A stretch of 46,546 bases of DNA from Gammaproteobacteria bacterium (lineage in GTDB: Bacteria > Pseudomonadota > Gammaproteobacteria > Arenicellales > Poriferihabitantaceae): NCBI GenBank assembly GCA_030590945.1, contig JAUVBY010000006.1, forward strand, positions 1 through 46,546, given 5' to 3'. This document shows positions 34,433 to 36,230 of this stretch, in pieces. The notes below the pieces were generated by a model. The model made no database searches. It was given only the letters and a program-made list of their open reading frames with translations, and was not told the DNA's origin. Made by a program: the position numbers and the translations under genes. How positions within the stretch are numbered: position 1 is the first letter of the stretch; each line of letters begins with the position of its first letter.

Positions 34433-35134
34433 ATGACGAATAAAGCGGCCAGGGCCGTGGTATTGTTGAGTGGGGGACTGGACTCCACTACCGTGCTTGC
34501 GATTGCACAACAAAGAGGTTTCGACGTATTTGCATTGTCTTTCAGTTATGGGCAACGCCATACCGCTGAGCTTGAATCAGCCAGAGCGGTCGCGCAACAG
34601 TTTGAAGTGGCTCGTCACGTGGTGCTTGATATCGATTTGCGGCGCTTTGGCGGGTCTGCACTGACGGATGATATAGCGGTGCCAAAAGGGCGTGATATCG
34701 CTCAGATGGCTAAAGAAATCCCTGTGACTTATGTACCAGCGCGTAATACGATTTTTCTGTCCTACGCTCTGGCCTGGGCAGAGGTTCAGTCCGCCGAGCA
34801 TATTTTTATTGGTGTCAATGCGGTTGATTACAGCGGGTATCCGGATTGCCGGCCCGAATTTATCGAGGCCTTCCAGCGTATGGCAAATCTCGCCACCCGG
34901 GCGGGAGTGGAAGGTGAATCGCCGCTGTGTATTGAAACCCCCTTATTGCAGTTGAGCAAAGCGCAGATCATTTTAAAAGGAATCGAGTTAGGGGTGGATT
35001 ATGCGCTTACCAACAGCTGCTATGATCCGCCGGATTCCGGCGCACCCTGTACTGAATGCGATGCCTGCCTGCTGCGCGCCCAGGGCTTCAGGGATGCGGG
35101 TCTGTCTGATCCATTGGTAAATAAATATGCCTGA
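34433..35134 (+). CDS. queC: 7-cyano-7-deazaguanine synthase
   Basis: Converts 7-carboxy-7-deazaguanine to preQ0 with ATP and ammonia in queuosine biosynthesis. The 233-aa PP-loop protein has the N-terminal ATP-pyrophosphatase motif [24 protein letters not shown] and [17 protein letters not shown], plus the zinc-binding cysteine cluster in [20 protein letters not shown] at the C-terminus. It overlaps queD by 8 bp, so the two steps are coupled. A queE gene is not present. Confidence 0.96.
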
Positions 35135-36230
35135 GCATAAAAATCTGCGCGCTTATACCGTTGCGTCAGCCCGGTTTGAAGCCGCCTGTAAAATAGACTC
35201 TCTGCCGGCAGTGCATCGCGCATCCAGGCTTCATGGCCACGGTTTTAGGGTAAAACTACGTGCTGTACTGCCAGCTAACCGGGCACGGTTTCCCGGCAGC
35301 GAGGTGGATGATTTACTTGCTAGCCTGCAAACCAGCGTGGCACCATTGGATCATCGCTACCTTAACGAGATTATCCGCAATCCTACCAACGAGAATATAG
35401 CCCGTTGGGTTAAAAGCCAACTTCCGCTAGAGATCGATAAAATTGCGGTACAAAGCACACCTTACGAAGGCGTGGATATAGATAAACACGGCGATGCCCA
35501 TGTATGGCAGCAATTTAGTTTTGAAGCAGCGCATCGCCTGCCGAATGTCGAGCCGGGGCATCAGTGCGGGCGTATGCACGGGCATGGTTTTAAAGTCATA
35601 TTGCACGCCAGCCAGCAGCTGGGTAAGGCCGATATGGCGGTAGACATGGATGATTTGACTCGCCTTTGGGCAAAAATTGCGCCCGAGCTGGAATTCACCT
35701 GTTTAAACGATATACCGGGCCTGGAAAACCCAACCAGCGAACACTTGTGCGCCTGGTTGTGGCAGCGCCTTAAACCCGAGTTAAATGTATTGTCGTATGT
35801 TTCGGTATATGAGACCTCGACCGCCGGCTGTCACTTTGACGGACAGAAATTTCGCATCTGGAAAGATTTCAGGTTTGAATCAGCGCTTAAACTGGATGCG
35901 GCGACTGAGGGTGATGGTCGCCGCCGTATGCACGGTCATAGTTATCTTGTTCGCCTGCATCTTCAGGCACCACTGGATGCGATGTTGGGCTGGACCATTG
36001 ACTACGGAGAGGTAAAGGCGCGATTCAAACCATTGTCGGCGCAACTCGATCACTATACGTTAAACGACGTACAGGGCATGGAGACGCCTTCCAGCGCTGG
36101 CGTGGCGGCCTGGATACGCCAGCGGCTTGATAAGCGTCTTCCGGAACTGGATCGCGTTGACTGTTTTGAGAGAACCGGCTGCGGCTCCTTATTATCCTGG
36201 GCCGAGCAGGGGCCGGCGTTGCCAATTTAG
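35127..36230 (+). CDS. queD: Triple-domain QueD/PTPS-like protein (6-carboxytetrahydropterin synthase)
   Basis: A 367-aa protein containing three QueD-like units (about 10-115, 128-235 and 246-355) instead of one unit of about 120 aa. QueD makes 6-carboxytetrahydropterin from 7,8-dihydroneopterin triphosphate for queuosine. Unit 2 has the zinc histidines H136, H151 and H153, catalytic C147 (CGRMHGH) and pterin-anchoring E229 (VYETST), but E189-F190 replace the Asp-His pair. Units 1 and 3 keep Asp-His (D75/H76, D308/H309) but lack the Cys and the first zinc His; unit 1 also lacks the Glu. In homologous PTPS enzymes the Asp-His pair comes from a neighbouring subunit, so one composite site is plausible. 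Overlaps queC by 8 bp. Confidence 0.88.

Follow-up and report, generated by a model that had tools for sequence, protein, structure and literature searches.

In rat PTPS the zinc site, the catalytic Cys and the Glu are supplied by one subunit and the Asp-His pair by another. Uricase and GTP cyclohydrolase IB carry two T-folds per chain and build larger barrels. The inter-subunit nature of the PTPS Cys-Asp-His triad is given in the title of Burgisser 1995 (cited in PMC7546909), and CxxxHGH is named as the PTPS-I motif in a passage of PMC5041015. Known chains of QueD/PTPS-I (E. coli 4NTK, P. aeruginosa 2OBA) are about 120 aa long and each bears the full residue set. Two further systems are relevant. 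In bimodular QueF (V. cholerae, E. coli), as described in PMC5372742, the catalytic elements are split between tandem T-folds – the QueF motif in one domain, Cys and Glu in the other – and meet in an interdomain site, the Cys having been lost from one module after duplication. Monomeric herpesvirus dUTPase, according to a passage of PMC12524310, is thought to be a duplicated and fused trimer-type enzyme in which one site has been kept between domains.

Here we analyse a gene on a 46,546-nucleotide stretch of DNA from a gammaproteobacterium assigned to the Poriferihabitantaceae (contig JAUVBY010000006.1, positions 1-46,546, assembly GCA_030590945.1); the whole stretch is referred to as the window. 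The product shares with QueD/PTPS-I the fold of its second unit, the CxxxHGH motif, the zinc His, Cys, Glu and Asp-His residues and a queC/queE neighbourhood, but a single residue set is spread across three units. Tandem T-folds, split catalytic elements and loss of Cys after duplication are features in common with bimodular QueF, which differs in having two units, in being an NADPH nitrile reductase with other motifs, and in representing a separate fusion. In apparently keeping a single site when a trimer was fused into one chain, the product recalls herpesvirus dUTPase, which is viral, has two domains and is of an unrelated fold. Pairs of consecutive units in the predicted structure can be aligned with single chains of uricase and GTP cyclohydrolase IB, which catalyze other reactions. 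Split T-fold catalysis (QueF) and one-site trimer fusion (dUTPase) are precedents for a three-unit, one-site QueD. No description of such a fused QueD was found in the part of the open-access literature covered (titles and the beginnings of abstracts).

A QueD-family gene of three tandem units

The gene follows queC, its start codon lying inside the 3' end of queC so that the two genes overlap. On its 3' side is hemN, followed by an Fnr-like regulator (score below the model cut-off) and ccoG on the opposite strand. The features of the locus are:

34433-35134, + strand: queC (PF06508, 256.7 bits; TIGR00364 above cut-off)
35127-36230, + strand: triple-unit queD, 367 aa (open reading frame with ATG start; PF01242 and TIGR03367; AlphaFold)
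35148-35492, + strand: unit 1, aa 8-122; HGH present, with C21, A32 and S110 at the first zinc His, Cys and Glu positions
35349-35354, + strand: codons of D75-H76, the unit-1 Asp-His pair (12/90 triples)
35493-35846, + strand: unit 2, aa 123-240; H136, H151, H153, C147 and E229, with Asp-His lost (E189-F190)
35565-35567, + strand: codon of C147, in the PTPS-I motif CxxxHGH (90/90 triples)
35847-36200, + strand: unit 3, aa 241-358; putative Asp-His donor, with L254 and R265 at the first zinc His and Cys positions
36048-36053, + strand: encodes D308-H309, the pair that probably serves C147 (90/90 triples; 11/11 in a later sample)
36201-36230, + strand: C-terminal tail, aa 359-367, and stop; in the alignment a PALP-like end is common to many homologues

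Three PTPS stretches are recognized in the protein by Pfam (PF01242, 198.1 bits with a threshold of 22.4) and again by the NCBI QueD model (TIGR03367, 172.8 bits with a threshold of 89.25), which places it in the PTPS/QueD family and bears out the reading of three tandem QueD-like units put forward in the earlier note. QueD is the only name that the NCBI family model offers for it. While a QueD chain usually consists of one unit of about 120 aa, this chain has three units and 367 aa. The QueF family (PF14489) was not matched: among 56 aligned triples PTPS is the only Pfam family detected (E≤0.001). A sequence search of the Protein Data Bank (E≤1) returned 16 distinct matching sequences, all of 115-200 aa, with no three-unit solved chain among them. 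An assembly or frame artefact was rejected, the same architecture being present in one open frame across many genomes.

Catalytic positions were read from an alignment of the window protein with 22 single-unit relatives, the reading frames of which were chosen by a Cys-HGH-Asp/Asn-His motif that was present in all 22 loci tried. In these relatives the catalytic positions are occupied by His, Cys, His, His, Asp and His in 22/22 and by Glu in 21/22, the exception (L119) being trimmed short. The corresponding residues are C21, A32, H36, H38, D75, H76 and S110 in unit 1; H136, C147, H151, H153, E189, F190 and E229 in unit 2; and L254, R265, H269, H271, D308, H309 and E348 in unit 3. What is missing from units 1 and 3 is the Cys and the first of the zinc His; the other two zinc His, which make up the HGH, occur in every unit. 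The position of the Glu anchor holds E348 in unit 3 and S110 in unit 1. The CxxxHGH motif occurs in unit 2 only, as C147-GRM-H151-G-H153. The full set – three zinc His, Cys, Glu and Asp-His – is complete once per chain, divided between units 2 and 3. All residues named in the earlier note lie where it placed them; the one refinement concerns the HGH pair, which is found in units 1 and 3 as well as in unit 2.

Distribution of the triple-unit form

Among 109 genomes of the taxonomic order to which the window belongs, the full triple was found at E 1e-20 in two: the window's own and one congener (a second congener genome, 89% complete, gave no PTPS match). A sample of the class contained it in 19 of 369 genomes, the window included, and a later sample of the phylum in 14 of 398, of which 11 are in genomes new to the study and three are repeats. 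A genome-wide scan by conserved stretches added at least 73 loci of the triple type (L039-L111), of which three are broken or cut. According to their record titles the loci belong to Burkholderiales, Chromatiales, Neisseriales and Magnetococcales, with single cases in Thiotrichales, Lysobacterales, Nitrospinota and Cloacimonadota. The triple-unit form is widespread: the architecture is present in at least 97 proteins besides the window's, with the unit-2 and unit-3 residues invariant.

Residue counts are based on 90 triples – the window, 19 from whole genomes and 70 of the 73 scan loci. One scan locus at a contig end (L104) and two with broken frames (L096, L109) were left out; L112-L118 are single-unit. 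Homologue frames were picked by CxxxHGH-type motifs, and no triple locus tried dropped out thereby. Starts were set by rule and some are off: that of L062 is too long and overlaps its own queC, which was counted as adjacent. The triple of Lamprobacter (L086) has a long threonine- and aspartate-rich repeat insert between units 1 and 2.

Two-unit intermediates were absent from the matches listed for the class and phylum samples, setting aside a few long open frames, such as those of G417 (377 aa) and G608 (393 aa), in which roughly one unit is matched. In plasmid records, the 20 places listed (of 85) each span about 350-470 bases, equivalent to one unit; 12 of the 20 carry the name queD.

Residues retained and residues lost

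In unit 2, H136, H145, C147, H151, H153, E229 and T230 are each found in 90/90 triples, although for H145, C147, H151 and H153 invariance in the 70 scan rows is partly by construction, because the scan patterns include these residues or the NPTSE stretch. The unit-3 Asp-His (D308, H309) is likewise 90/90, and neither these two residues nor H136 and E229 form part of any scan pattern. Two sets of rows were collected by similarity. In the first, made up of the window and 19 homologues that resemble it over the whole protein, H136, C147, H151, H153, E229, D308 and H309 are conserved in 20/20; in the second, the 11 triples of the later sample, the zinc His, Cys, Glu and unit-3 pair are conserved in all, eight of these proteins differing from every row collected before. 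A subset thinned at 70% identity retains the unit-2 residues and the Asp-His of unit 3 in 60/60 proteins.

Conservation is uneven along the chain. One window position in unit 1 is invariant across the 90 triples, compared to 17 in unit 2 and six in unit 3 (two of the six being D308 and H309), and mean pairwise column identity is 42, 57 and 51 percent in units 1, 2 and 3, respectively. The unit-2 pair has Asp in 31 triples, His in 48 and both in 23; in the later sample its Asp is found in 0/11. On the family tree the unit-2 pair requires 15 changes and the unit-1 pair four; the unit-3 pair is invariant.

Although the full zinc site has been lost, the HGH of units 1 and 3 is retained nearly everywhere (H36 in 89, H38 in 89, H269 in 77 and H271 in 84 of 90 triples), which counts against drift alone. 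The Glu position of unit 1 is Ser in 81/90, and its first zinc-ligand position is Arg in 61/90 and Cys in 24/90, the window included. In some triples a Cys-His-His metal site is thinkable in unit 1 (C21, H36 and H38; window 35187-35240).

A probable composite site between units 2 and 3

We think it likely, and hold the view with some confidence, that the gene is a single-chain, pseudo-trimeric queD in which just the site between units 2 and 3 has been retained and in which D308/H309 activates C147. Three tunnelling-fold units, joined last strand to first strand by short turns, would close into a ring. The ancestral homotrimer would have had a site at each of its three interfaces, and the one between units 2 and 3 alone would persist. 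To this site unit 2 would contribute the zinc ligands H136, H151 and H153, C147 as the catalytic Cys and E229 as the Glu that anchors the pterin, and unit 3 the D308, H309 pair that activates the Cys. If the Cys of unit n pairs with the Asp-His of unit n+1, then loss of the Cys from units 1 and 3 would have freed the pairs of units 2 and 1, respectively, to drift, explaining why these vary while the unit-3 pair does not. The reverse order, Cys of unit n with Asp-His of unit n–1, predicts an invariant unit-1 pair and is not supported, because that pair is variable.

The predicted structure is consistent with such a ring. AlphaFold was run on one chain alone, with an input of 56 aligned proteins (thinning to under 85% identity kept 62 of 71 rows, from which L049, L062, L068, L072, L079 and L086 were dropped because they carry extensions or inserts), and gave a mean pLDDT of 95.3 and a pTM of 0.92, with pLDDT ranging from 92.7 to 95.3 over the five models. 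The order strand, strand, helix, helix, strand, strand is repeated three times, with inter-unit turns of 3-4 residues (119 to 123 and 237 to 242). The best solved match in Foldseek is P. aeruginosa QueD (2oba; TM-score on target 0.94, 1.2 Å), and in VIA-align unit 2 is the part of the model that superposes on QueD of E. coli and P. aeruginosa (Z 12.2, rmsd 1.2-1.4 Å over 117-119 residues); the solved chains closest to this unit are 2oba, 4ntk, 4ntm and 4ntn. Bacillus uricases span units 1-2 or 2-3 in VIA-align (Z 10.7-11.1, 212-217 residues, rmsd 4.5-4.9 Å), an alignment that loosely fits predicted neighbouring units lying side by side like T-fold neighbours. None of the 50 VIA-align matches listed is named as a three-unit chain, a statement about names alone that excludes nothing. 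The model is a confident prediction of one compact chain; from it we infer closure of the ring. Two chains probably stack like two QueD trimers.

Stacking brings up the possibility that the site is formed between chains, through stacked rings or swapping, such that unit 2 meets unit 3 of another chain and the protein is active only as a dimer. PTPS itself consists of two head-to-head trimers, with each site among three adjacent monomers (from a passage of PMC7546909), and the residue data cannot tell pairing within a chain from pairing between chains. The short turns of the model, however, favour the neighbour within the ring, and a single uricase chain aligns with two consecutive units; we regard assembly between chains as unlikely.

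A second alternative, raised by the window sequence itself, is a single composite site in which D75/H76 of unit 1 serve C147. Both residues occur in the window protein and in its congener, and it is because these two proteins belong to a minority that a single sequence suggested two candidate partners. Among the 90 triples, 66 have Asp at position 75, and at position 76 there are 13 with His and 68 with Tyr, against 90/90 for C147; the two are found together as Asp-His in just 12, and the pair in most triples is Asp-Tyr. In the later sample position 76 is His in 1/11. The unit-1 His requires five changes on the family tree, and a needed partner would not vanish so often. Unit 1 was rejected as the partner of C147, a role that we consider highly unlikely for it; the contrast between 90/90 for the unit-3 pair and 12/90 for that of unit 1 argues that C147 very probably pairs with D308/H309.

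For the earlier note's proposal of a fused trimer with a single composite site these data have two consequences. The 90/90 split of residues supports the proposal itself, whereas the standing of unit 1 as an equal Asp-His candidate is lost: that units 1 and 3 both keep the pair is true of unit 3, but for unit 1 it describes a minority. Decay of the pair among homologues, named there as a refuting observation, is evident in unit 1 and absent from unit 3.

Genomic context and function

Of the 90 triple loci, 72 have a same-strand match to queC and/or queE no more than 1 kb away (queC in 46, queE in 67, both in 41), a figure obtained with one QueC and one QueE query and standing without a background rate from unrelated genes. 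Of the 18 loci with neither match nearby, seven have flanks of about 1.5 kb, four are short on one side (L074, L090, L091 and L099) and seven have about 5 kb on both sides. The Q pathway is represented in the window's genome by the adjoining queC, by queE on contig C122 and by a QueF-family gene on contig C62.

The triple is the sole PTPS match (E 0.001) in 17 of the 20 triple-bearing genomes, two of the 20 being less than 90% complete. Two others (G429 and G436) have one additional match each, and that in the window's genome is a fragment. The absence of a separate canonical queD from the genome, on which the earlier note made its reading depend, is upheld in that this fragment covers 52 of 121 profile positions. 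The fragment, part of a second PTPS gene, lies on contig C135 (G000; L003:1384-1662, – strand) and spans profile positions 2-53, with a CxxxHGH; its frame then leaves the family. It adjoins an M35-type metallopeptidase gene and is flanked by a 123-base direct repeat, the two copies of which are 89% identical and separated by 2121 bases.

Because other PTPS matches are absent from 17/20 genomes and queC/queE are within 1 kb in 72/90 loci, the triple is very probably the working QueD of its organisms; it would convert dihydroneopterin triphosphate to 6-carboxytetrahydropterin for queuosine. A pseudogene was rejected on the basis of residue invariance (90/90) together with the lack of another PTPS match in those 17 genomes. 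That the protein stands outside the Q pathway, as a new activity or as a pseudoenzyme scaffold for QueC and QueE, is extremely unlikely: two of its three pockets are broken, their HGH is there for no known reason and 18 loci lack a queC or queE match nearby, but the full QueD catalytic set is kept once per chain in 90/90, mostly beside queC or queE and with no second PTPS match in most genomes.

Origin of the triple

A tree was built of 97 units, taken from 25 triples and from 22 single-unit proteins. Units 1 and 3 each form one side of a branch in it and unit 2 needs two changes; the total is four, compared to a minimum of three. The tree has few columns and long branches, and three of its 94 branches are starred. 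It fits a single triplication followed by spread, as far as a short alignment with weak support can suggest. Within the window's family a PTPS match is found in five of 24 genomes, comprising two triples and three single units (L007-L009). In the tree these three share a long branch and are separated from the remaining single-unit proteins. The gene is thus patchy in this family and may have been acquired.

Discussion

Constructive neutral division of the active site, one of the interpretations offered in the earlier note, may account for a chain of three units with one site, as may a gain of asymmetry or the docking of QueE/QueC. One version of these ideas takes up the HGH pockets of units 1 and 3, in which the first ligand has been replaced and, in unit 1, Ser stands for Glu: these may be structural or regulatory binding sites, or a docking face for QueE/QueC, in which case one pocket of the ring would serve catalysis and the other two would have a different role. 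We consider this doubtful; if true, the ring would have an asymmetry beyond the reach of homotrimers.

A homotrimer turned into a single chain is a natural experiment, in which the residues that are kept and those that drift reveal what each subunit contributes. In a homohexamer with six sites one change hits all sites; the triple lets single residues of the inter-subunit triad be probed. It also offers a test of whether the loss of two of three sites was neutral, or brought a gain of asymmetry.
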